Made by a program: the position numbers and the translations under genes. A DNA stretch of 53,726 bases, taken from contig CALCCD010000048.1 in the NCBI GenBank assembly GCA_937899645.1, positions 1 through 53,726 of the forward strand. The letters run 5' to 3'. Shown piece by piece: positions 9,865 to 50,682 of the stretch (positions are counted from its first letter, which is position 1; each line of letters begins with the position of its first letter). The notes under the pieces are model-generated. The model ran no database searches, had not been told where the DNA came from, and was given only the letters and a program-made list of their open reading frames with translations. Origin of the DNA: an uncultured cyanobacterium (GTDB lineage Bacteria; Cyanobacteriota; Cyanobacteriia; Cyanobacteriales; Geitlerinemataceae).

Positions 9865-10002
9865 CTACACCGACAGGCGCGCGCGGCCTTTGCGTCGGCG
9901 AGACTTGATGACGCGGCGACCGTTTTTAGTGCGCAGGCGGACGCGGAAACCAGATACGCGCTTGCGCTTGCGGCTCGTGCCGTGCAGTGTGCGTTGGGGC
10001 AT
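9865..10002 (-). CDS. rpmH: 50S ribosomal protein L34
   Basis: A 45-residue, very basic protein that I read directly from the minus strand. It starts [19 protein letters not shown] and continues with the L34 pattern [22 protein letters not shown], ending RLSV. It is part of the large ribosomal subunit. An AGGAGA ribosome-binding site precedes the ATG. It heads the rpmH-rnpA-PH-yidC-jag operon. A longer minus-strand frame overlaps it but is a shadow. Confidence 0.95.
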
Positions 10003-10118
10003 GGTGTTTCTCCTGAGATTGAGGGGGTTGGCGGGCTGTGCGGATAGCGACGATCGCCGCTCGCCTTAACCCACACAGTCGGACAAGACTCGCGAATGAC
10101 GAAAAGTCGCGGTTTCAC

Positions 10119-10124
10119 ATACTA
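10119..10124 (-). promoter_or_regulatory. Possible -10 box for rpmH operon
   Basis: TAGTAT on the minus strand in the context TTTTGCTAGTATGTG, about 117 bases before the rpmH ATG. No convincing -35 box is present, so this is tentative. Confidence 0.3.
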
Positions 10125-10172
10125 GCAAAAGAACCGATTTCGATCGACATAACCGAGGCGAATTCGGGGAGT

Positions 10173-10218
10173 CAACAGCAAAGCGCCCGCCGGTTGTGGT
10201 GCGGGCGCTTTGCTGTTG
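10173..10218 (-). terminator. Long perfect hairpin after the DUF2808 gene
   Basis: Two 18-base arms (10173-10190 and 10201-10218) are perfect inverted copies around a 10-base loop. The arms are GC-rich at the inner end. The hairpin lies about 80 bases after the DUF2808 stop and before the rpmH promoter region, so it probably insulates the two units. No T run follows, so it may stabilise a 3' end rather than act as a classical terminator. Confidence 0.55.
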
Positions 10219-10300
10219 GCCGATGTGGCGGATCTAATGTGGCGGATCTTCGGTGCGATCGCGCCTGCTTGATGCTCGGCGGTCGGGCGCTAACTAGATG

Positions 10301-10879
10301 CTAGTTGCCGATGCCGATTACCCAAGTGCCGAGATAGCGGGCGATCGGCAGGTCGCCGGGGCTGAAAGCGCGGGCATTGAAGAAGTACATGCCACCAAAG
10401 CGCGGATTGCTGACGTTCGAGAGAACGATCTCGACCTTCTGGCCTGCCGGGACGGGCTCTTTCGGGAAGATATCGATAACGTGGTTCTCTTCGTCCCAGA
10501 TGACCGTTTCGACCTCGACGTCTTCATAACTGCGGCCTTCCTTGATGCGGACGCGCACGGGTTGGCGACGAATTCGGCGCAGGCGGCGCTCTAGATCTTC
10601 ATCGAGTTCGATGTCGAACTCACCGTCGTAGTAGTCGGGATACTCGATCGAGAACTGCGAGACGGCGAAAGTCATTTTCGTCGCCGGGATGCGCAAGCGG
10701 TAGCGATCGCGCGGGTGGCCGTTCGAGCCGTAGTCCAGCGCGAAGTCGAGCGTGTTCCCCTGGCCGGGGCCGCCGAACAGTACGAAACCTTCCGCTGCGG
10801 CCTTGGGGATCGCGCTACCGAAGAGCGCGGCGGCGGAAAGCGTGATGGAGGCGAGTGCCACCGAAAGAGTACGGTTCAT
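10301..10879 (-). CDS. DUF2808 secreted protein
   Basis: A 192-residue protein of the cyanobacterial DUF2808 family, function unknown. It has a clear signal peptide: MNRTLSV, a hydrophobic stretch, and cleavage after the AAA of PKAAAEG near residue 29. The mature part is beta-rich with a strongly charged middle (ELDEDLERRLRRIRRQPVRVRIKEG), and it ends with the family pattern of NPRFGGMYFFNARAF and LGTWVIGIGN. It is expected in the periplasm or cell envelope. It is transcribed away from pntA. Confidence 0.8.
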   Translation of the reverse strand: MNRTLSVALASITLSAAALFGSAIPKAAAEGFVLFGGPGQGNTLDFALDYGSNGHPRDRYRLRIPATKMTFAVSQFSIEYPDYYDGEFDIELDEDLERRLRRIRRQPVRVRIKEGRSYEDVEVETVIWDEENHVIDIFPKEPVPAGQKVEIVLSNVSNPRFGGMYFFNARAFSPGDLPIARYLGTWVIGIGN

Positions 10880-11518
10880 GGTTCAAAAGTGTCGAAATGT
10901 GTCGTGTCAGGGCTGAAAAAGGCTTGAAACGAGTTTGAGACCTGTTTGGCGAAGCTTATGGGACGGCTGCCTAGCTGATTTATGTGAACAAATTTATCAA
11001 ACTCAGTGTGACGTGTCATCCGCAATCCGGAATCGCGTGCCTCGGGACAGGCAATTTCGTGGCGGTGATATGCCGACGAGCGCGATCGCCGGTCGGCTCC
11101 ATTCGGGTTTGCCGTTAAGTCCGCTGGGCAACCGTGTCTCGTTCGTCGTAACCCAAGCCAGGAGCGGCCAGAGATCGATTTAAAAACGTTCCAAATCTCG
11201 TCTGGAAAGCTTTGGGATCGCGACATAAAAGTTTGCCCTTTCATCGGTCTTTTTTCTGAAGCGGAAATCTTGTCATGTTTCCGTGATTTTCAAGCAAGAA
11301 AAAGCAACTAAAAACTTTACGTTGTGAAAAGCACGAACTCTTATCGATCGCCTAGGATCTAGGTTGCGAAGAAGCGGGCTGGAGTTCCGGAAATTACGGC
11401 CAATTTCAGCGTTTTTTTCACGTCCATCTAGAGGTTTAGATGGAGGCGAAACGTTAGACCCGATCGAACCCGATCGAGGCCGCCGCTTCTTCGCTCGTTC
11501 ACAGACGGGCACTAATTT
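10880..11518. other. Divergent intergenic region, DUF2808 gene / pntA
   Basis: A 639-base stretch without a gene I can support. It must hold promoters for both divergent genes. A hairpin TCCATCTA-GAGGTT-TAGATGGA lies at 11423-11444, 75 bases before the pntA ATG, so it is probably in the pntA leader. The direct repeat CCCGATCGA follows at about 11459-11478. I saw no convincing -35/-10 pair. Confidence 0.5.
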
Positions 11519-12676
11519 ATGAAAGTTGCAGTCGCAAAAGAACTCGCTGCCGGTGAAAGTCGCGTTGCCCTCATTCCCGACGTTGTCAGCCGCCTGGTCG
11601 ATCGCGGGTTTGAAATTCTCGTGGAGTCGGGTGCGGGCGATCGCGCCTACTTCACCGACGAGCAGTACGAAGCGGCGGGGGCGAGCGTCCTGGCCGACAC
11701 GGCGCGAGTCTGGAGCGAGGCCGACGCGATCGTCAAGGTCGCACCGCCCGCCGAGGCCGAAATCGCGCAGATGCGATCGGGCAGCGTCGTTATCGGCTTT
11801 TGCAATCCCCTCGGAGCGCCCGAGACGATCGCCCAGCTCGCCGATCGGGGCGTTACGACGTTCGCAATGGAGCTGATCCCACGCACTAGCCGCGCCCAGA
11901 GCATGGACGCGCTCTCGTCCCAGGCAGGCTTGGCAGGCTACAAAGCCGTGCTGCTCGCGGCGTCGTCGCTGCCGAAGTTCTTCCCGATGTTGACCACGGC
12001 GGCGGGAACGATCCGACCGGCGAAGGTGTTCGTCATCGGTGCGGGCGTTGCCGGTTTGCAGGCGATCGCCACCAGCCGCCGCCTCGGCGCAGTCGTCGAA
12101 GCCTTCGATATTCGCCCCGCCGTCAAAGAGGAAGTCCAAAGCCTCGGCGCGAAGTTCGTCGAGGTGAAGCTCGAGGAAGAAACCGTCGCAGCGGGCGGCT
12201 ACGCGCGCGAAATCTCCGACGACTCGAAGCGCCGCACCCAGGAGACGATCGCCGATCGTGTCGCGCAATCGGACGTGGTGATTACCACCGCGCAGGTTCC
12301 CGGCAAAGTCGCGCCGCGCATCGTCACCGACGCGATGATTGCCGCAATGAAACCCGGTTCGGTCGTGGTCGATTTGGCCGCGAATCAGGGCGGCAACTGC
12401 GAGGGCTCCGAGTCCGGTCGCACGGTGTTTCGCCACGGTGTAACCATAGTTGGCGCGGAGAATTTGCCCGCGACGATGCCGGTTCACGCCAGCCAAACCT
12501 ACGCCAAAAATATCGCCACGCTGCTGCAACTGGCGCAGGGTGAAAACGGCGAATTCGCGCTCGACTTCGACGACGACATTATCGACAGCGCCTGCATCAC
12601 TCACGCGGGCGAGATCCGTAACGATCGCGTGCGATCGCTCGTCGAATCGTCGCAGCAAGAATCGACCGTTAGCTAA
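11519..12676 (+). CDS. pntA: NAD(P) transhydrogenase subunit alpha, part 1
   Basis: NAD(H)-binding domain I of the proton-translocating transhydrogenase, which moves hydride between NADH and NADP+ at the cost of the proton gradient. At 385 residues it is the soluble alpha-1 subunit of the three-subunit type known from Rhodospirillum. The N-terminal alanine-dehydrogenase-like domain starts MKVAVAKELAAGESRVALIPDVV. A Rossmann fold at about residues 165-200 (VFVIGAGVAGLQAIATSRRLGA) binds NAD(H). It is the first gene of pntA1-pntA2-pntB; the next gene begins 101 bases downstream. Confidence 0.93.
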   Translation: MKVAVAKELAAGESRVALIPDVVSRLVDRGFEILVESGAGDRAYFTDEQYEAAGASVLADTARVWSEADAIVKVAPPAEAEIAQMRSGSVVIGFCNPLGAPETIAQLADRGVTTFAMELIPRTSRAQSMDALSSQAGLAGYKAVLLAASSLPKFFPMLTTAAGTIRPAKVFVIGAGVAGLQAIATSRRLGAVVEAFDIRPAVKEEVQSLGAKFVEVKLEEETVAAGGYAREISDDSKRRTQETIADRVAQSDVVITTAQVPGKVAPRIVTDAMIAAMKPGSVVVDLAANQGGNCEGSESGRTVFRHGVTIVGAENLPATMPVHASQTYAKNIATLLQLAQGENGEFALDFDDDIIDSACITHAGEIRNDRVRSLVESSQQESTVS

Positions 12677-12777
12677 GAAACGGCCCGAGATCTCTGAGGT
12701 TTTAGAAATCTCTGCCATCTTGAGGTCTCGACAGCAGTTCTTAATTTGGACTTCACGATCTATATCGAGAATTTTGC

Positions 12778-13071
12778 ATGAACGACCCCACTATTGCGGC
12801 GCTCTTTATCTTCGTCTTGGCCTCCTTTGCGGGCTTTGAGGTGATTAATAAAGTGCCGCCGACGCTGCACACGCCATTGATGTCCGGCGCGAACGCCATC
12901 TCTGGTATCGCCGTCCTCGGCGCGATCGTCATCGCTGGAGACACCCACACCACCGTGACGACGATCCTCGGCGCGATCGCGATTGTCCTCGCCACGATTA
13001 ACGTGGTCGGTGGCTTCCTCGTCACCGATCGCATGCTGCAAATGTTCAAGAAAAAAGAGGTGAAGGCATGA
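12778..13071 (+). CDS. NAD(P) transhydrogenase subunit alpha, part 2
   Basis: A 97-residue membrane subunit (alpha-2) of the transhydrogenase, carrying the helices that join domain I to the proton channel. It has three to four hydrophobic segments: FIFVLASFAGFEVINKVP, ISGIAVLGAIVIAG and TILGAIAIVLATINVVGGFLV. The typical THTPLMSGANAISGI motif (here LHTPLMSGANAISGI) is present. Its stop overlaps the pntB start (ATGA at 13068-13071), showing translational coupling. Confidence 0.92.
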   Translation: MNDPTIAALFIFVLASFAGFEVINKVPPTLHTPLMSGANAISGIAVLGAIVIAGDTHTTVTTILGAIAIVLATINVVGGFLVTDRMLQMFKKKEVKA

Positions 13072-16608: not shown

Positions 16609-16941
16609 CTAGTAGAGCGCCAAGATTCCCAGATCGGGGTTGTCAGTCAAAGTTTGGATATCGGCAGCGTGGACTCGCAATATGGTTTCAATATCGTTAG
16701 TGGAACAATTGCCACGACGAATCCAAACGACCTTAGGCGGAGAGCCTCTAAGCGTAAGTAGTTCGTTATAGTCGCTGTCTTTTGTGACCACCATTAAGTG
16801 GTTGCGCCGAGCGTAGTCCCAAACCTCGAGATCCTCGGCGCTGTCGAGCCCAACTTTGTAAACGTGGGTAGAGCCCGGAAAAAGATCGGCTAGCCGCCGC
16901 ACTAACCTGGGCGAAAGATTGTGATCGAAGAGCAGCTTCAT
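16609..16941 (-). CDS. DUF5615 PIN-like toxin
   Basis: A 110-residue PIN-like nuclease candidate of the DUF5615 family. Acidic residues typical of PIN folds are present: D6 (MKLLFDHNLS), DLEVWDYA, and TKDSDYNEL. It is expected to act as the RNase toxin of a toxin-antitoxin pair. Its start overlaps the stop of the DUF433 gene by four bases (16938-16941), so the two are translationally coupled, antitoxin first. Upstream in-frame residues to 16995 are shadow. Its composition is less GC-rich than that of neighbours. Confidence 0.8.
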   Translation of the reverse strand: MKLLFDHNLSPRLVRRLADLFPGSTHVYKVGLDSAEDLEVWDYARRNHLMVVTKDSDYNELLTLRGSPPKVVWIRRGNCSTNDIETILRVHAADIQTLTDNPDLGILALY

Positions 16942-17165
16942 TGCACTTGCATGAGCAGAATCCGTTGCTCGCGCTCGGCAGCATAACTCAAGCACGCAAA
17001 GATATCTTCCTGAGTCAGGTAAGGAAAGTCTTCCAAGATTTCTGCATAGGTCATGCCGGATGCCAGGTAAGACAACACGTCATAGACGGTAATTCGCATC
17101 CCGCGAATGCAAGGTTTACCGCTACGTTTACCCGGCTCTAGAGTGATTCGTTCGCGATATTCCAT
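16938..17165 (-). CDS. DUF433 antitoxin
   Basis: A 75-residue DUF433 protein with a small winged-helix/HTH-like fold, which usually neutralises a DUF5615 toxin and represses its own operon. The start MEYRERITLEPGKRSGKPCIRG is the standard DUF433 N-terminus, so I chose the ATG at 17165 over the longer frame to 17258. The middle carries the family text GMRITVYDVLSYLASGMTYAEILEDFPYLT. It precedes the DUF5615 toxin with a four-base overlap. It lies 37 bases after the receptor-channel gene on the same strand, so read-through is possible. Confidence 0.85.
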   Translation of the reverse strand: MEYRERITLEPGKRSGKPCIRGMRITVYDVLSYLASGMTYAEILEDFPYLTQEDIFACLSYAAEREQRILLMQVQ

Positions 17166-17202
17166 AATGTTCGCCAAGTCGTTTTTCGCGGCCCGCTCCG
17201 CC

Positions 17203-19293
17203 CTAATTATCCGCACCAAACCAGCGGGCGTACAGCTCGTCGTAGATACCGTTCTCACGCAGCTCCAGAAGCGCCGCGTTGACCTCCTCGCGGTAGGCGC
17301 TGTTTTCTGGCAGGACGATGCCGTAGTTTTGGTTCTCGAACACTGCGCCGACTACCTCGACTTCGCCCGCCCCGGCGTTGAGGGAGTAGTGCTGCAACAC
17401 CGGCGCGTCGTAGACCACCGCATCCAGATTTCCGAAGCGCAGCTCTCGGTAGAGCACGTCGGTGCTTTGGAAGCTGGTGGCGCGGATATCGCGATCGATC
17501 AAGAACTTCTCGGCGGTGCTGGCGTCGATCGTGCCGACGATTTTGCCTTGGAGGTCTTTTGGGTCGCCGATGGTATTTTCCAGGCGATCGACCGTAAACG
17601 TCGTCGTCACCGTGGCGATGAAATACGCGAAAACGAAGTAGCCCGCGCACATCCACACCAGCGCGAACAGCTTGCCGATCGCCGTCTGGGGCGCTTTGTC
17701 GCCGTAGCCGACCGTTGTGACCGTCACGGCCGACCACCAGAACGAGTCCCAAATGCCGCGAAAGTAGTCGCTGTGGAAGTCCGGGTTGCGGCGACGCTCC
17801 AGGAACCAGACCACGTGGGCGGCGATCGCCAGCGTCAGCACGAATAGCCCGATGCCGTAATAAAGCTGCGGTGTCGTGACGATCTGTATCAGACCGCCGA
17901 TCAGTGACTCGATCGGATGACTCGGCAGATCGCGCACCATAATTTGCAAGCCGGAGTCGAAGAACGGGTGAGAAAAGTCCACCACTTCCTCGCGCGCCAC
18001 GGTCATGCTGACGCCCGCGATGCCGATATCGGAGTCGCCAAGACGGACGTTTTCCAGCAGAGCATCGACGCTCTCGACCTTGTTCATGCGGTACTCGCGG
18101 CCGAGGTGCTTGGCGATCTCCACCCACAACTCGATGCTGAAGCCGGTGTAGGAGCCGTCTTCGTAGGTCACGAAGGGCGTAAAGGTTTTGGTGACCACCC
18201 GCAGCGGCGGCAGCTCGCCCGGCGGGAGATCGCTGCTTGCGCTCTCTGTCGTGGCCGGTTCTTCGAGCCAGGTGTCCACTGTCTCGCGGTTCTCGGCGAT
18301 CCAGTCGGCGGCGCGCTGGCGTTGGGCTTCGGAGGACTCTGCGCCGTTAAATTTGGCCAGCAGGTCGGCTTCGATGTCGTCGATCGGGATAAACAGCCGA
18401 TCGAGTAGTTGAGAGATCGCCGGGTGGCGGAGCAGAAACTCCTGGCGCGCCGCCGGTCGCAGCTCCGTGGCGACGAACCCGGTCAGGCAGGGATCGTCCG
18501 CGCAGCCCACCAGTCCCTCAATCGGCTTGGGAACCGGGCTGCCGAGTGCATCGTCGATCGCGATCGCCTCGGGCACGGTCAGCCAGCGGGTTTTTTCCTC
18601 CGGCTCGAGCAAGCGATTGATCTCGTGGGGCGTCCAGGCATAGAACAAGACCGGCTCGCCGCGCTCGTAGCGATCGAGCGTCTGGCGAATTTGGTAGTCG
18701 TAGTTCTGGCTGACCTGTTCGACCGTTTCGCCTAACTCGTAGGCTTCGATATGGCGGTCGATCGTCTCGGCGCAGACCCAGCCATCGTTGCAGCCGATCA
18801 GGTCGGCTTTGCCGTTGCCGTCGAGGTCGAACGCGGCGGCAACCTGGGGATCGCGTAGGTCGGTCAATGAGGCGATATCTAGTTTCTCGGCAGTGGCGCG
18901 GTCGATCCGGTAGCCCTGGATGGCCACGTCGGCGATCGGCGCTGCCAGGGCGATCGCCTCGCCGTCTTCGAGACCGTTCGCCGCATCGATCGCCGCATCG
19001 TGATCGGGCCATGTCTCGAGCCAGAGATCGGTCTCGCCGCGAGCGAGGGCCGCATAGAAGTCATTGGGCTCGAACACCTGGGACAGATTGACTTTGTAGC
19101 CCAGCTCTTCGAGAAGCTGCCGCGCGATCTCGACCTGGAGACTGCTGGTGTTCCACGGCGATCGCGCCAGGTTCACTTCGATCGGGTTACTGACACCCGA
19201 GAGCGGAAACAGGCCGAGCCAGAGCGTTGCCAAGCACGCACAAACACCCAACCAGAGCGCGCGCAGTTTCGCGGGAGAGATGCGTTGCTTCAC
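17203..19293 (-). CDS. Betaine-binding protein fused to glutamate-receptor-like K+ channel
   Basis: A 696-residue fusion. Signal peptide: about 1-36. Residues about 37-345 form an OpuAC/ProX-type binding domain for quaternary amines: SPWNTS (W47), LWLETWPDHD (W91, W95) and the ProX-like VLFYAWTPHEI (W220) supply aromatic residues that could cage a betaine. An EF-hand-like DLDGNGKAD loop lies at 156-164. Residues about 362-460 and 570-696 are the two halves (S1, S2) of an amino-acid-binding domain: VAREEVVDFSHPF carries the Arg (R434) matching the ligand carboxylate Arg of ionotropic glutamate receptors, and VVYDAPVL carries the matching acidic residue (D629). Between them lie TM1 (about 475-497), a pore loop with the K+ filter TTVGYGD (526-532), and TM2 (540-565). 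This is GluR0-like with an added N-terminal domain. Start is GTG. Ligand and ion choice are inferred. Confidence 0.85.
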   Translation of the reverse strand: MKQRISPAKLRALWLGVCACLATLWLGLFPLSGVSNPIEVNLARSPWNTSSLQVEIARQLLEELGYKVNLSQVFEPNDFYAALARGETDLWLETWPDHDAAIDAANGLEDGEAIALAAPIADVAIQGYRIDRATAEKLDIASLTDLRDPQVAAAFDLDGNGKADLIGCNDGWVCAETIDRHIEAYELGETVEQVSQNYDYQIRQTLDRYERGEPVLFYAWTPHEINRLLEPEEKTRWLTVPEAIAIDDALGSPVPKPIEGLVGCADDPCLTGFVATELRPAARQEFLLRHPAISQLLDRLFIPIDDIEADLLAKFNGAESSEAQRQRAADWIAENRETVDTWLEEPATTESASSDLPPGELPPLRVVTKTFTPFVTYEDGSYTGFSIELWVEIAKHLGREYRMNKVESVDALLENVRLGDSDIGIAGVSMTVAREEVVDFSHPFFDSGLQIMVRDLPSHPIESLIGGLIQIVTTPQLYYGIGLFVLTLAIAAHVVWFLERRRNPDFHSDYFRGIWDSFWWSAVTVTTVGYGDKAPQTAIGKLFALVWMCAGYFVFAYFIATVTTTFTVDRLENTIGDPKDLQGKIVGTIDASTAEKFLIDRDIRATSFQSTDVLYRELRFGNLDAVVYDAPVLQHYSLNAGAGEVEVVGAVFENQNYGIVLPENSAYREEVNAALLELRENGIYDELYARWFGADN

Positions 19294-37935: not shown

Positions 37936-37989
37936 GGCGATCGCGAGTTTTGAGGCCGATCGCGCCAGAGCGCAGCCGGAAAGAAGCCG

Positions 37990-38025
37990 GACAGCATGCC
38001 CTGGCGATCGCCAGGGCATGCTGTC
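37990..38025. terminator. 36-bp perfect palindrome after kaiC
   Basis: Two 18-base half-sites are exact reverse complements with no loop, starting GACAGCATGCCCTGG and centred on the HIP1-type GGCGATCGCC. It lies 55 bases after the kaiC stop. It can form a hairpin and may end the kaiC transcript, but there is no T run. Confidence 0.6.
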
Positions 38026-38114
38026 GATGCCGATCGTTCGTGACGGTCGAGCCGCGAGCAACTTCAGATTTTCTACAGCAACGAAAGGCGATCGCAGCCA
38101 CGACAATAGAGCCC

Positions 38115-39185
38115 GTGGACAACACAAACGGGGATATTGCCTTGGCCATTTTTCGGACGCCCGAGCTTGAAGACAAGGAAAACTCGGCGGCTCGCCTGCG
38201 GATCGAGACCCTGGGGGCCAGCATCGATCGCGTTGCCTCCGAAGCTGCCGATCGCGCCGAAGTCCTCCACGGGCTCGCCCAACCACAAAAAACCCTGCCC
38301 GCCAAATACTTCTACGACGCGCGCGGCTCGCAGCTATTCGAGGAAATCTGCGGCCTGCCGGAATATTACCCAACCCGCACCGAAGCCTGGATTCTCGATC
38401 GCTACGCTGTGGAAGTCGCCGACGCCACCGGCCCCTGCGAGCTGGTCGAACTCGGCAGCGGCAGCTCGACGAAAACGCGGGCGCTGCTCGACGCCTACCG
38501 CAACCTGGGCGGGGCGTTGCGCTACGTGCCGATCGATGTGAGCCGCACGATCCTGACCGAGAGCGCGAAACAGCTCCTGCGCGACTACCCGACGCTGGAA
38601 GTGCGCGGCGCGGTTGCCACCTACGATCGCGCCCTCGCCGCCCTGAGCTTTAAGTTCGCTCCCACCGACCTGCCGTCGCGGATGCTGGTGTTCCTCGGTA
38701 GCTCGTTGGGGAACTTGACGCTGGAGGAGTGCGATCGCTTTTTCGGGCAGGTGCGCGGCTTCCTCGACGCGGGCGAATATTTCTTGCTGGGGGTCGATTT
38801 GCACAAGTCCACGGCGCAGCTCGACGCGGCCTACAACGATTCGCGGGGCGTGACGGCGGCGTTTAATCTCAATATGTTGGCGCATCTAAATCGGCGGTTT
38901 GGGGCGGATTTCGATCGCGCGAACTTTCAGCACCGGGCGTTTTATAACGAAGGCGATCGGCAAATCGAGATGCATTTGCGCTGCCTGCATAGCCATGAGG
39001 TTCAGCTAGGCGATCGGCGGTTTGCCTTCACCGAAGGCGAGACGATCCGCACGGAAATCTCGCGTAAATTCGACGTGGACGCCGTGCGAGCGCAGCTCGA
39101 TCGCTACGACCTCGAGCCGGTCAACATCTGGCGCGACCCCCAGGGCTGGTTCGCCTCGATCCTGTCGCGGCGGCGGGTTCGTTAA
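38115..39185 (+). CDS. egtD: L-histidine N-alpha-methyltransferase
   Basis: Trimethylates histidine to hercynine with SAM, the first step of ergothioneine synthesis. The 356-residue product has the EgtD layout: an N-terminal domain (VLHGLAQPQKTLPAKYFYDARGSQLFEEI to PEYYPTRTEAWIL), the SAM-binding motif VELGSGSSTKTRALLDA, and the later LVFLGSSLGNL and HRAFYNEGDRQIEMHL segments. Start is a GTG at 38115; the frame extends to 37950, but that part overlaps the palindrome downstream of kaiC. The sulfoxide synthase gene follows after 118 bases, completing a two-gene pathway. Confidence 0.92.
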   Translation: MDNTNGDIALAIFRTPELEDKENSAARLRIETLGASIDRVASEAADRAEVLHGLAQPQKTLPAKYFYDARGSQLFEEICGLPEYYPTRTEAWILDRYAVEVADATGPCELVELGSGSSTKTRALLDAYRNLGGALRYVPIDVSRTILTESAKQLLRDYPTLEVRGAVATYDRALAALSFKFAPTDLPSRMLVFLGSSLGNLTLEECDRFFGQVRGFLDAGEYFLLGVDLHKSTAQLDAAYNDSRGVTAAFNLNMLAHLNRRFGADFDRANFQHRAFYNEGDRQIEMHLRCLHSHEVQLGDRRFAFTEGETIRTEISRKFDVDAVRAQLDRYDLEPVNIWRDPQGWFASILSRRRVR

Positions 39186-39303
39186 GCTAGTTGCGGGCTT
39201 CCCAACTCGCTCGCTTGGGACGCAAAATTTTGCGGGCGCACTGCCTGACGCCCCTACTGTTGATGCTCTGTGTTGACCTAAACACGCCGCTTTGAGGGAT
39301 ATC

Positions 39304-40611
39304 GTGCTGTCATCTCTGCCCGTGCCTCGTCTGAATCGCTGCGATCGCGCCGAGCTGCTCGCCTACTTCGAGAACGCCTGGGACATCGAAGACTGCCTGC
39401 TCGGGTCGCTGCGCTCCGATGACGCCTTCTATCTCAGCCCCGACCCGCTGCGAAACCGGCTGATTTTCTACCTCGGCCACTCGGCGGTTTTTTATATCAA
39501 CAAATTGATACGGGTCGGCTGGCTCGATCGGCGCATCGAACCGCACTTCGAGATCCTGTTCGAGATCGGCGTCGATCCGTCCACGCCGGAAGAGCTGGAG
39601 TCAGCGATGGCAAACGTGCAGTGGCCAGAGGTCGATCGCGTCTGGGCTTACCGCCGCAGCGCCCGCGAGGAAGTCGCCCGCACGATCCGCACCGCAACGC
39701 TGGACGAAGCAAGCGATCGTCCCTTGCAAGACCGACCGCTCTGGGCGCTGATGATGGGCATCGAACACCAGCGCATCCACTTCGAGACCTCCTCGATGCT
39801 GCTGCGCCAGCTCGACGCCGATCGCCTGCGCCGCCCCGAGGAGTGGGGCTATGCCCCGACTGCGGGTAAAGCCAACAATACCCTCGTGCCGGTGGCTGGT
39901 GGCCGCGCGATGCTGGGCAAGCCGCGCAGCTCGGACACCTACGGCTGGGACAGCGACTACGGTTCGCGCGAAGTCACCGTCAAACCATTCCTGGCGGGCC
40001 AGACGCCGGTCACGAACGGCGAATTTTTCAAATTCGTGCGCGACGGCGGCTACGAGAATCCCGAATTTTGGGGCGCGCAACCACCGGATTCGTCGCACCC
40101 GAAGTTTTGGCAAATCGAGCGCGATCACGTCCGCTACCGCACCGTCTTTGAGGAGATCGACCTGCCGCTGAGCTGGCCGGTGGAGGTCAACCACCACGAG
40201 GCAATGGCCTACTGCCGGTGGTACGGCGAAAGGACGCGGCTGATGTCCGAGGCGGAGTGGCAGGTGGCGAGTCGCGCTGCATCCGATCGCTCAGACGCGG
40301 CAAACCTCGATTTACAGTTCGGCTCGCCCAGTCCGGTGGGCTCGTTCGAGCGCGAGCGCGACGGCCTCTACGACCTGCGCGGCAACGTCTGGGAATGGCT
40401 CGGCGACGACTTCACAGGGCTACCGGGCTTCGAGCCGCACCCGCTCTACGCCGACTACTCCGAGCCCTTTTTCAAAGATCGGCACGACGGCCAGCACAAG
40501 GTGATGCGCGGCGGCTCCTGGGCGAGTACCGGAGCGTATGCGTCCAGCCGCAACTGGTTTCGCCCGTATTTCTACCAGCACGCCGGATTCCGCATCGCGC
40601 GGGATGCTTGA
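39304..40611 (+). CDS. egtB: OvoA-like sulfoxide synthase (cyanobacterial EgtB type)
   Basis: A 435-residue non-haem iron enzyme that joins a cysteine-type sulfur donor to hercynine. The N-terminal DinB-like domain carries the iron ligands: H59 (LIFYLGHSAVFYINKL), H155 and H159 (EHQRIHFE). The C-terminal formylglycine-generating-enzyme fold includes GQTPVTNGEFFKFV, GLYDLRGNVWEWLGDDF and MRGGSWAS, ending NWFRPYFYQHAGFRIA. The N-terminus matches OvoA-type proteins more than mycobacterial EgtB, but the OvoA methyltransferase domain is absent; EgtD supplies hercynine. This fits the cyanobacterial EgtB described as derived from OvoA and using cysteine directly. The GTG at 39304 has GAGGG upstream; TTG at 39292 is an alternative. 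Confidence 0.85.
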   Translation: MLSSLPVPRLNRCDRAELLAYFENAWDIEDCLLGSLRSDDAFYLSPDPLRNRLIFYLGHSAVFYINKLIRVGWLDRRIEPHFEILFEIGVDPSTPEELESAMANVQWPEVDRVWAYRRSAREEVARTIRTATLDEASDRPLQDRPLWALMMGIEHQRIHFETSSMLLRQLDADRLRRPEEWGYAPTAGKANNTLVPVAGGRAMLGKPRSSDTYGWDSDYGSREVTVKPFLAGQTPVTNGEFFKFVRDGGYENPEFWGAQPPDSSHPKFWQIERDHVRYRTVFEEIDLPLSWPVEVNHHEAMAYCRWYGERTRLMSEAEWQVASRAASDRSDAANLDLQFGSPSPVGSFERERDGLYDLRGNVWEWLGDDFTGLPGFEPHPLYADYSEPFFKDRHDGQHKVMRGGSWASTGAYASSRNWFRPYFYQHAGFRIARDA

Positions 40612-41447: not shown

Positions 41448-42881
41448 ATGCCGCCGACCCTGCCGATCGCGATTAGCTTCGTCGCCTTTATGTTGCTGTT
41501 CACCGGGGTCGGCCTGTTCGCCGCCACGCGCAAGCAGAACACCACCGCTGACTACCTCCTCGCCAGCCGCAGCGTCAACCCCTGGCTGACCGGACTTTCG
41601 GCCTTCGCGACGGCGCACAGCGGCGGCATGTTCATCAGCTCGATCGGCTGGACGTATCAGGTGGGAATTTCGGGCGCTTGGTTGCTCGTGGGTTGGTTCC
41701 TCGGGGACTATATGGCCTGGTTTTTCGTCCATCGGCGGCTCCGCGTGGTCTCGGAGGAGACGAACTCGGAGACGATCGGGGCCTTTCTCGCCGGGGGAGA
41801 TCGGCAGAATCGCCCGATCGCGGTAACGTCGGCACTAACGACGATCGCCTTCCTCGGAACCTACGCCGCAGCTCAGCTCCTGGCAGGCAGCAAAGCCCTC
41901 CACGCAACCTTCGGCTGGAGCTATGGCTTCGGGATCGTCCTCGGTGCGGTCATCGTTGTCGCCTACTGCTTCTCCGGCGGGATTCGCGCCTCGATTTGGA
42001 CGGACGCGATCCAGGCGGTGGTAATGATGGTGGCGATGGTGGCGATGGTGGTGGTAGCGCTGGTGGCCTGTCGTGGCTTTGGCGGGATGTGGGAGCAGCT
42101 CGCAACGATCGACCCGTCGCTAATCGATCCCGTGCCGCAGGGGTTGCAGTTTGGTTTCGGGCTATTTTTGCTGAGCTGGCTGGTGGCGGGCTTCGGCGCG
42201 GTCGGACAGCCCCACATCATGGTGCGGGCGATGGCGATCGATCGCGCCGAGAATATGGGCATTACGCGCAATATTTACGCAGTGTCGTACGTGGTGTTTT
42301 CAGCGGCGGCGGTGCTGGTGGGGTTGAGTGCGCGAGTGCTGCTGCCGAACCTCATGCAGAACGGCGATCCGGAGCTGGCGCTGCCGATCCTGGCCGTAGA
42401 CCTGCTGCCCGCGCTGGCCATCGGCGCGATCCTGGCCGGGGTGTTCGCAGCGGTGGTCTCGACGGCGGACTCGCAGATTTTGTCCTGCTCGGCGGCGCTC
42501 ACCCAAGATTTATTTCCCCGCTGGTCGCACTCCTACAAACTCGCGAAGGTGGGGACGATCCTCGTGACGGCGATCGTCTTGGCGATCGCGCTGGCGAGCA
42601 ATAAAGAAGTATTCGCGCTGGGGGTCTTCGCCTGGTCGGCGTTGGGGTCGGGGCTGGGGCCGCTGCTGGTGGTGCGGGCGTGGCGGTGGCCGGTGGGCAA
42701 TAGCGTCGCGGTGGCGATGATACTGGTGGGGATTGCGGTGGCGGCAGTCTGGAATGCGGTGTTGGGACTCTCGGGGTCGATCTACGAGGTGCTGCCGGGG
42801 ATGGCGGCAGGGTTTGCGGTGTACGGCGCGGCGCGGGCGTTTGGTGCGGGAGGCGATCGCCGAGCGGCGGGCGAACCGTAA
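41448..42881 (+). CDS. Sodium:solute symporter, PutP-like
   Basis: A 477-residue membrane protein of the SSS family (sodium-coupled uptake of proline, betaine, pantothenate, sugars and others), with about 13 TM helices. Family text: FATAHSGGMFISSIGWTYQVG (TM2 region), GIRASIWTDAIQAVVMM and the conserved AGVFAAVVSTADSQILSCSAALTQDL with the sodium-site Ser/Thr residues. Overall it looks closest to proline/betaine-type members, but the substrate cannot be fixed by eye. It begins 18 bases after the split DUF427 gene. It might supply compatible solutes. Confidence 0.88.
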   Translation: MPPTLPIAISFVAFMLLFTGVGLFAATRKQNTTADYLLASRSVNPWLTGLSAFATAHSGGMFISSIGWTYQVGISGAWLLVGWFLGDYMAWFFVHRRLRVVSEETNSETIGAFLAGGDRQNRPIAVTSALTTIAFLGTYAAAQLLAGSKALHATFGWSYGFGIVLGAVIVVAYCFSGGIRASIWTDAIQAVVMMVAMVAMVVVALVACRGFGGMWEQLATIDPSLIDPVPQGLQFGFGLFLLSWLVAGFGAVGQPHIMVRAMAIDRAENMGITRNIYAVSYVVFSAAAVLVGLSARVLLPNLMQNGDPELALPILAVDLLPALAIGAILAGVFAAVVSTADSQILSCSAALTQDLFPRWSHSYKLAKVGTILVTAIVLAIALASNKEVFALGVFAWSALGSGLGPLLVVRAWRWPVGNSVAVAMILVGIAVAAVWNAVLGLSGSIYEVLPGMAAGFAVYGAARAFGAGGDRRAAGEP

Positions 42882-48999: not shown

Positions 49000-50682
49000 C
49001 TAGCGCACCGTCAAGCGCCCGAAAACACCACCCTCACCCGACCACTCCTTCTCGAGTAACCGCACCTCCAGCTCCAGCAATCGCCGGTACGTCAGCGAAT
49101 AACCCAACACCGGATGCTTCCAAGACTCCGACTTCCGGCGCTCGTATAGCTCCACAAACTTCCGACGCCCCGAAGCGCTCAGCCACACCTGCACCCCCCG
49201 CAGCTCAAAATCTGCCGCCGCATCCCACCAGCCACGATTCACCGAACCCAGCACCGGCATATCCACCAGCGGCACGCGAAAAATCTCCATCAAATCCAAC
49301 GCCAACGGCGGCGCTTGCGTCCGAGGCTGGTGGTAAAAACCCAGCGCCGGTTCCAAACCGACCGCCAAAATTGCATTCGCCACATCCTTCAGGAGCAGCG
49401 CGTAGCCAAACCCCAGCAGCGCATTAAAACGATCCTTCGGCGGGCGGCGATTCCGCCCCGCAAACGCCAGTTCCGGCGGCTGCTCCGACGAAACCGCCAG
49501 CGACAGCCCCGAAAAATATAGCGCCGCCAGGTTGCCTTCCAAACCCAATAGCTCCGATCGCGACATTGCCCGATCGACCCCCTTCAACCCCGCCTTCATC
49601 TGCTTGACGATCGCTTCCATTTGCTCCCGCACCGCCGACCCCGACGCCATGCTGCGCTTGCAGCGCATCAAAAACGCCCGCTGCCCACCCGCACGACAGC
49701 TCACCAACAGCCGCGCCAGCCGCACGCAAAACGCCTCATCCGCCAGCGCCGCATACTGCCCGCACCGCCGCTGCACGCTACCCGCTCGCCGATCGACGCT
49801 GCCCACATAGCGGCCACCGCCCGAAATCCAGTGAACTCCGATATCCTGCGCCGCGCAGAGGTGCAGCGCCTGCGTCGAAATCTGCGAAAAGCTGTGCAGC
49901 ACGACTTGCGAAACCTGCCGGATCGCCACCTCATCTACCGAACGATCGCGATGCGTCACCTTCAGCCGTTCGCCCTTGCGCCCAACTCGACTGCCCGCCT
50001 CCAGGACATGCAGCACCTGCCGCTCGTCATCCGCTGGAAACAGCCGCGTCGGTTGGTAGTCTGCCGCTACCTGTTCCGCGACGGCAAAGCGCGTTTCCTC
50101 TGGCAAACACACCGGTGCAAGCGAGCAGTTCTGGCACAGCCGCTCGTTATCCGCCACCGGAGGGCGTGTTCCGCCTTCCCGAAGTGCTCGTGCCCGCGCG
50201 ATCGACGCCACGACCTCAGCCCGACCCGCCTCATCGAACGGCACTTTTACCAGTGCGTTATCGGCGTGATAGCGGATACGGCCTTCGCGAATCGGGCGTG
50301 TCGCCACCGTTTCCAGCAGGCAACAATACGCCAAAACTTGCAGGCGATCGCTGTCCCACGCCTGGGGCTTTTTGTCCGCATCGCGCCGCGCTCGACCTTT
50401 CTTGTGCTCGTAGGCCAGCAGCTCGCCGCCGCGCAAACGCAACGCATCGACCCGGCCACGCAGCCCCAACTCTTCATCGGATAGGAACAGATCTTCCCAC
50501 TCGCCCTCCTCGTCGCGATCGAGTTCGACGTGCAAGCGTCGCCCCTCGAATACCGACTGATTTTGCGTATACAGCTCCTCCACTTCTTCCAGGTAAAATA
50601 GCCGTGGGCAGTAGGCCAAAGCGTGCAGCGCACAGACCCGTAAAGTCCCTTGCGTGCGAGTTTTCTTCTCAGAAAAAAACAT
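49000..50682 (-). CDS. Cas4-Cas1 fusion protein
   Basis: A 560-residue fusion. The Cas4 part (about 1-200) is a RecB-like nuclease with an Fe-S cluster; it trims prespacers and selects PAM-bearing ends. It shows C25 (CPRLFYLE), D79 (GRVDA), E92-K94 (YEHKKG) and the cysteines C183, C186 and C192 (CQNCSLAPVC). The Cas1 part (about 210-560) is the integrase, with metal ligands E382 (LEGNLAALYF), H451 (GFYHQPR) and E466 (DLMEIFR). Both active sites look intact. Such fusions occur in MYXAN/I-B-like and I-G systems. It begins 89 bases after cas5. Confidence 0.93.
   Translation of the reverse strand: MFFSEKKTRTQGTLRVCALHALAYCPRLFYLEEVEELYTQNQSVFEGRRLHVELDRDEEGEWEDLFLSDEELGLRGRVDALRLRGGELLAYEHKKGRARRDADKKPQAWDSDRLQVLAYCCLLETVATRPIREGRIRYHADNALVKVPFDEAGRAEVVASIARARALREGGTRPPVADNERLCQNCSLAPVCLPEETRFAVAEQVAADYQPTRLFPADDERQVLHVLEAGSRVGRKGERLKVTHRDRSVDEVAIRQVSQVVLHSFSQISTQALHLCAAQDIGVHWISGGGRYVGSVDRRAGSVQRRCGQYAALADEAFCVRLARLLVSCRAGGQRAFLMRCKRSMASGSAVREQMEAIVKQMKAGLKGVDRAMSRSELLGLEGNLAALYFSGLSLAVSSEQPPELAFAGRNRRPPKDRFNALLGFGYALLLKDVANAILAVGLEPALGFYHQPRTQAPPLALDLMEIFRVPLVDMPVLGSVNRGWWDAAADFELRGVQVWLSASGRRKFVELYERRKSESWKHPVLGYSLTYRRLLELEVRLLEKEWSGEGGVFGRLTVR

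Follow-up and report, generated by a model that had tools for sequence, protein, structure and literature searches.

Why would a bacterial channel of the glutamate receptor type carry a second binding domain, and which compound might that domain sense? The question is raised by a single gene within the 53,726 nucleotides of cyanobacterial DNA analysed here (the window, from genome G000). Little is known about what prokaryotic glutamate receptor channels naturally bind and do, and a second sensor of predictable ligand class would provide a direct handle on these questions. In the portions consulted, a survey from 2010 reports 22 putative channels, 12 of them with a K+ filter, and its main text has no match to OpuAC, betaine, osmo, proline, fusion or N-terminal (PMC2950845). 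The first-pass annotation of the window knew of no described example of a betaine sensor fused to a GluR0-type channel. This was borne out within the open-licence literature, where no such description was found among the matches listed; domain databases may contain the architecture as an uncommented entry. The gene represents a real and conserved variant of the GluR0-type channels, apparently one that has not been described so far.

One gene joins a ProX-type domain to a complete GluR0-type unit

The gene is one open frame of 696 codons plus stop, with a GTG start and no internal stops, in which a signal region is followed by a complete ProX/OpuAC-type domain, a linker and a complete GluR0-type unit (Table 1). 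Pfam placed OpuAC (residues 39-334, E 1.1e-43, 150 bits against a cut-off of 21), SBP_bac_3 (residues 367-693, interrupted by the pore, E 8e-29) and Ion_trans_2 (residues 487-566, E 2e-15) all on this one protein, with Lig_chan and Lig_chan-Glu_bd also above their cut-offs. The NCBIfam ProX model covers residues 36-347 with 243 bits against a cut-off of 215. The closest solved structures are E. coli ProX (1r9l, E 1e-42) for the N-terminal part and the ligand-binding core of Nostoc GluR0 (2pyy, E 5e-48) for the channel part, and GluA1/GluA2 structures align over about 380-692. A chance domain match is ruled out by the Pfam, NCBIfam and solved-structure matches. The annotation had read the gene as a join of an OpuAC/ProX-like domain and a complete GluR0-like unit, and both the join and the OpuAC assignment were upheld. 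Alignment and hydropathy likewise agree with its mention of S1, S2, TM1, TM2, the TTVGYGD filter and the ligand-type pair R434 and D629. An Arg in S1 and an Asp in S2 as contacts of the bound amino acid are used as a criterion in the consulted part of the 2010 survey (PMC2950845).

Table 1. Positions of the features of the fusion gene and of related genes (window coordinates unless a locus is named)
Feature	Position	Strand	Basis
Whole fusion gene	17203..19293	-	Reading frame, Pfam, NCBIfam
Signal region, residues 1-35 (hydrophobic 10-35)	19189..19293	-	Hydropathy
N-terminal ProX/OpuAC-type domain, residues 36-350	18244..19188	-	Pfam, NCBIfam, structure match 1r9l
Cage residue W95 (E. coli ProX W65)	19009..19011	-	Alignment; W in 16/16 fused proteins
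Cage residue W172 (E. coli W140)	18778..18780	-	Alignment; W in 16/16 fused proteins
Cage residue W220 (E. coli W188)	18634..18636	-	Alignment; W 13/16, F 3/16
Short linker, residues about 348-360, between ProX/OpuAC domain and S1			
S1 half of glutamate-type binding domain, residues 361-460, with R434	17914..18213	-	Pfam, alignment
TM1, residues 476-500	17794..17868	-	Hydropathy
Pore filter TTVGYGD, residues 526-532	17698..17718	-	Alignment, hydropathy
TM2, residues 537-564	17602..17685	-	Hydropathy
S2 half of binding domain, residues 575-694, with D629	17212..17571	-	Pfam, alignment
Channel with shrunken ProX domain, cage region gone	L113 284-1936	-	
Channel with shrunken ProX domain, cage region gone	L114 9530-11335	+	

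The channel part resembles GluR0 of Group 1 (Synechocystis slr1257; Nostoc core 2pyy) in its S1-TM1-pore-TM2-S2 order, its TVGYGD filter, the Arg in S1 and the Asp in S2. In the GluR0 sources, as far as consulted, the soluble regions are S1 and S2 only, whereas the window protein has a complete ProX-type domain (about 315 residues) in addition. This domain is similar to ProX/OpuAC binding proteins such as E. coli ProX (1r9l) in whole-domain sequence, fold and aromatic cage. However, those proteins are free or permease-bound parts of importers, while the window domain is joined to a channel, carries Val at the position of G141 and has the extra cysteines C264 and C269. A ProX domain attached to a membrane part is also known from ProW-ProX permease fusions, four of which were encountered, one of them in G176, a genome that also carries the channel fusion. 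In those, an ABC permease forms the membrane part (BPD_transp_1 in the two analysed with Pfam) and ProX is C-terminal, in contrast to the channel and the N-terminal ProX domain of the window protein. An N-terminal clamshell followed by a ligand-binding clamshell that is divided by the pore is shared with eukaryotic ionotropic glutamate receptors. In these receptors the N-terminal domain belongs to the LIVBP type and a further membrane helix (M4) follows S2; the window protein instead has a ProX-type domain and, by hydropathy, two hydrophobic spans after the signal region and none beyond S2.

The fusion recurs in two phyla

The same architecture was found in 16 genomes. Twelve are cyanobacterial (G000, G001, G002, G003, G005, G036, G061, G176, G388, G954, G956 and G967), so that relatives with this layout, as looked for among other cyanobacteria, do exist, and four are actinobacterial. 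G000, the genome of the window, has one copy; the copy of G001 is cut by a contig end, with a match up to residue 507. In genomes of the order, the fusion occurred in 7/195 of a first draw (E <= 1e-20) and in 10/388 of a second (E <= 1e-108). A draw of the cyanobacterial phylum yielded G000 and G388 (2/386, E <= 1e-60); these cyanobacterial draws overlap one another. Three of 66 genomes in the class of Salsipaludibacter albus are carriers (G197, G198 and G225), and its phylum added one more, G822, among 396 genomes. The actinobacterial records include a Nitriliruptorales MAG (L003) and Salsipaludibacter albus itself (L004). Phyla beyond these two were sampled by a pattern scan that requires exact short peptide matches and by a plasmid search, in which none of the 77 matching records covers at least 80% of the query in one place.

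OpuAC, SBP_bac_3 and Ion_trans_2 were all detected by Pfam in 15/15 complete proteins. The TVGYGD filter is present in every fused protein with the pore in hand (15/15), and the equivalents of R434 and D629 in every one with the channel part in hand (15/15). An artefact, that is a frameshift or misassembly uniting two genes, or chance, is next to impossible: the same join is present in 16 genomes, 15 of which encode it as complete single frames with both parts in Pfam, and a frameshift or misassembly is excluded because this layout recurs in other genomes. The host phylum was called cyanobacterial since psbA was detected in nine out of nine cyanobacterial relatives tested and in none of the four actinobacterial genomes. 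In the G000 assembly itself psbA was not found, which we read as a probable assembly gap.

The ligand pocket keeps its aromatic cage

A model of the N-terminal domain, built from five sequences (mean pLDDT 70), matched betaine-bound ProX (1r9l) best, with a Z score of 24.6 over 297 aligned residues (rmsd 3.5) against 18.2 for the next-best row; Foldseek gave an E value of 4e-22 for the same pair. Structure prediction thus delivered the ProX fold for the domain alone. It was poor for the whole chain, and that model (pLDDT 44) was set aside.

In the consulted part of the E. coli ProX data, the ligand residues are W65, H69, W140, G141, C142 and W188 (PMC10087775, Table 2). Alignment gives W95, H98, W172, V173, C174 and W220 as their counterparts in the window protein, so that five of the six are retained, with G141 to V173 as the exception. 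The first-pass annotation had named W47, W95 and W220 as the cage. W95 and W220 stand, but W47 aligns with E. coli I17, which is none of the ligand residues listed in that part of the source, and W172 had been overlooked. The cage positions are aromatic and C174 is present in 16/16 fused proteins. At the position of H98, His is found in 11 of the 16, the three late-found proteins being among those without it. Position 173 is Gly in 1/16 fused domains versus 14/15 actinobacterial free ProX proteins. The absence of Gly at this position had been a candidate signature of the fusion, perfect on 13 fused proteins and the only column out of 315 to pass the filter. It was dropped; as one of three later-found fused proteins has Gly, this is a trend and no rule. 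C264 and C269 occur in all 16 fused domains, in all 15 actinobacterial free ProX proteins and in none of the 23 cyanobacterial free or permease-fused forms. In the alignment, the side of the pocket that would receive a quaternary ammonium group is constant, and the side that contacts the carboxylate varies. This pattern fits a quaternary-amine sensor with retuned affinity or preference, without proving binding.

The domain might instead sense another ligand, such as choline, proline betaine, trimethylamine oxide, DMSP, hercynine or ergothioneine. Binders of choline, TMAO, DMSP and ergothioneine were also among the matches of the fold search, the carboxylate contacts are variable, and EgtD/EgtB-like (histidine-betaine) genes are present in the same window, though about 19 kb off. 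On the other hand, the nearest structure and the NCBIfam model are both those of the glycine betaine/proline ProX, and most of the E. coli ligand residues are kept. It seems quite improbable that one of these other compounds is the ligand.

Evolution of the sensor domain

Three short matches (in L059, L060 and L073) and near-identical copies were left out of a 51-domain ProX tree, in which a branch with 100/100 support splits the fused and the actinobacterial free domains from the cyanobacterial free and permease-fused forms. A single clade of fused domains apart from free ProX is absent from the unconstrained tree, yet it is compatible with the data (p 0.296). A long branch of 1.09 leads to the window and its two congeners, so their domain has evolved rapidly after its separation from the others. 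For the congener pair G001 and G002, dN/dS was 0.092 for the sensor domain and 0.085 for the channel, so the sensor domain is under purifying selection comparable to that on the channel in this pair. For the window versus G002, the values were 0.161 for the sensor domain and 0.092 for the channel, with dS near saturation.

A probable single fusion followed by losses

A 61-row tree of the channel domain places all intact and all shrunken fusions in one 23-row clade (89/89). Also inside this clade are seven channels without the N-terminal domain (NTD), which come from a different genus of the window's family, as well as the G227 remnant and an NTD-less alphaproteobacterial channel whose placement is uncertain. 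An exclusive clade of the 14 fused and shrunken rows was rejected (AU p 2.3e-5), because the NTD-less channels of the other genus nest inside. With the seven NTD-less rows and the G227 remnant held together with these 14, a set chosen after the tree was known, the constraint was not rejected (AU p 0.417). Both AU tests were run on the 61-row tree, which predates three late proteins. Once these had been included and three long rows taken out, the clade comprised 26 rows (90/97). L058, L061, L062 and G001 (L112, L010) were left out of the 61-row tree for low channel coverage, and L057, L094 and L006 additionally out of the later one for their long branches.

The shrunken forms G190 (601 aa) and G166 (550 aa) are sisters of the intact G967 and G956 of the same family (100/96). 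In the 601-aa form, Pfam sees only the last 63 of 257 OpuAC positions, and it gives no OpuAC match for the 550-aa form at E <= 0.001. The NTD is absent in seven genomes of one other genus of the window's family, and the cage region is gone in two genomes of another family. The channel-domain trees favour a single fusion followed by losses. Loss is the simpler reading because of the nesting; trees by themselves give no direction of change. The natural series of intact, shrunken and lost domains allows the role of the extra domain to be asked.

One answer would be that the ProX-type domain serves purely for assembly or spacing: it would aid channel formation or anchor a partner, its pocket being a relic. 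The domain has indeed been lost or shrunk while the channel survives, carboxylate contacts vary among the fused domains, and some eukaryotic receptor N-terminal domains mainly guide assembly. However, the aromatic cage is kept in all 16 intact domains across two phyla. The two shrunken forms keep part of the domain without the cage, and therefore something maintains the pocket where the domain is whole. We consider a mere assembly role rather unlikely.

Gene neighbourhood of the fusion

A BCCT carrier gene and a free ProX gene adjoin the channel gene in five out of five actinobacterial loci (four intact, one remnant). Pfam was run on the BCCT and ProX genes of this neighbourhood in L004, where the pair (9977-12861, minus strand) overlaps by four bases; it is also seen in L003, L102, L103 and L111. 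In the last of these (G227; 10583-11434, minus strand), only a 283-codon remnant of the channel gene is left, with neither the N-terminal domain nor TM1, beside an intact BCCT-ProX pair. As BCCT carriers are not known to work with binding proteins, a BCCT system assisted by such a protein may exist.

In the fetched flanks of nine cyanobacterial loci, two of which are covered mostly to one side, we observed no BCCT or second ProX-type gene; the three late loci, fetched with short flanks, are not among the nine. G176 has a further OpuAC gene about 13 kb off on the same contig, outside the fetched flank. Among the cyanobacterial genomes searched, BCCT matches were seen only in G176, G388 and G166, on contigs other than that of the channel. 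G000 has no BCCT carrier at E <= 1e-10, and its sole OpuAC match at E <= 1e-5 is the domain inside the channel. The channel's own domain is the sole OpuAC match in G002 (86% complete) and G005, too; other carriers have more. With no BCCT match and no OpuAC outside the channel, it is unlikely that the domain in G000 is a spare part of an OpuAC-based importer. The actinobacterial BCCT linkage could also mean that the fusion is a tethered receptor that passes its solute to a membrane carrier, with the channel part secondary. We regard this as highly improbable, as G000 lacks both a BCCT match and another OpuAC match, free ProX is already present in the actinobacterial loci, and the filter is conserved in all 15 proteins that include the pore.

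A putative K+ channel with two periplasmic sensors

Our preferred reading, to which we assign a probability of about 0.6, is that the protein is a K+-selective channel of the GluR0 class with a second periplasmic sensor, through which a quaternary amine, probably glycine betaine, tunes the glutamate-type gating. The anatomy and its conservation, the intact cage, the purifying selection on the domain and the actinobacterial linkage are observations, whereas the ligands, the gating, the stacking geometry, the sign of the effect and the physiological role are inferred. We counted in favour of the tuned channel the separate complete domains, the 1r9l match, the cage in 16/16 proteins, the dN/dS values of G001 versus G002, the occurrence in two phyla, the BCCT-ProX linkage, the sole OpuAC match of G000 and, as far as its source was consulted, Synechocystis GluR0. 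Counted against it were the loss or shrinkage of the domain with the channel kept, the variable carboxylate contacts, the dN/dS of 0.161, the missing BCCT linkage in the nine cyanobacterial loci and the poor whole-chain model.

By analogy with GluR0, the channel would be a tetramer whose pore opens when glutamate or a related amino acid occupies the S1-S2 clamshell. The ProX-type clamshell stacked on the N-terminus would bind a quaternary amine, most likely glycine betaine, and this might shift opening, in the way that some eukaryotic glutamate receptors are tuned by their N-terminal domains. Depending on whether glutamate and an organic osmolyte are found outside the membrane, the cell could then adjust K+ flux, for example by releasing K+ once betaine has replaced K+-glutamate. 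Closure of the N-terminal clamshell by betaine might favour opening and K+ release; this sign is a guess, and inhibition would fit as well. In the consulted parts of a study on Synechocystis GluR0, the channel rescues growth of K+-uptake-deficient E. coli and slows shrinkage after KCl upshock, and its authors propose that glutamate leaving the cell activates GluR0 when non-ionic compatible solutes replace K+-glutamate (PMC13099474). A betaine sensor would report the other half of this switch from K+-glutamate to compatible solutes. Since two distant bacterial phyla have both retained the join, a two-sensor channel that reads salt-stress chemistry is suggested.

A bolder version is tentative, and we would not bet on it: the two clamshells, stacked and reading an amino acid and a quaternary-amine osmolyte respectively, may form a coincidence detector for the change from K+-glutamate to organic osmolytes. 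The NTD layout of eukaryotic receptors would then have evolved here independently from a different binding-protein family, and stages of a return to an ordinary GluR0 would be visible in the lineages that later dropped the sensor. If true, the stacking of a second clamshell on a glutamate receptor core arose more than once.

Other genes in the window

No ABC permease or ATPase is among the five nearest neighbours of the window gene, which by Pfam are an S41 peptidase, DUF5615, DUF433, an MntP-like and a DUF192 gene. Among the top 40 neighbour groups, the DUF192 gene is the most widely shared neighbour of the cyanobacterial form (five loci, all of one family), and the S41 peptidase gene is common to three loci (window, G002 and G036). 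Directly behind the channel gene lies the DUF433 and DUF5615 gene pair (16612-17258, minus strand), which we take to be possibly toxin-antitoxin-like. Further along, an EgtD-like histidine methyltransferase gene and an EgtB-like (FGE-sulfatase/DinB_2) gene, named from our reading of the Pfam matches, form an ergothioneine-type pair (37950-40608, plus strand), followed by a sodium:solute symporter (SSF) gene (41448-42878, plus strand). At 49003-50682 (minus strand), Cas4 and Cas1 domains share one frame and thus represent a fused Cas4-Cas1 protein.
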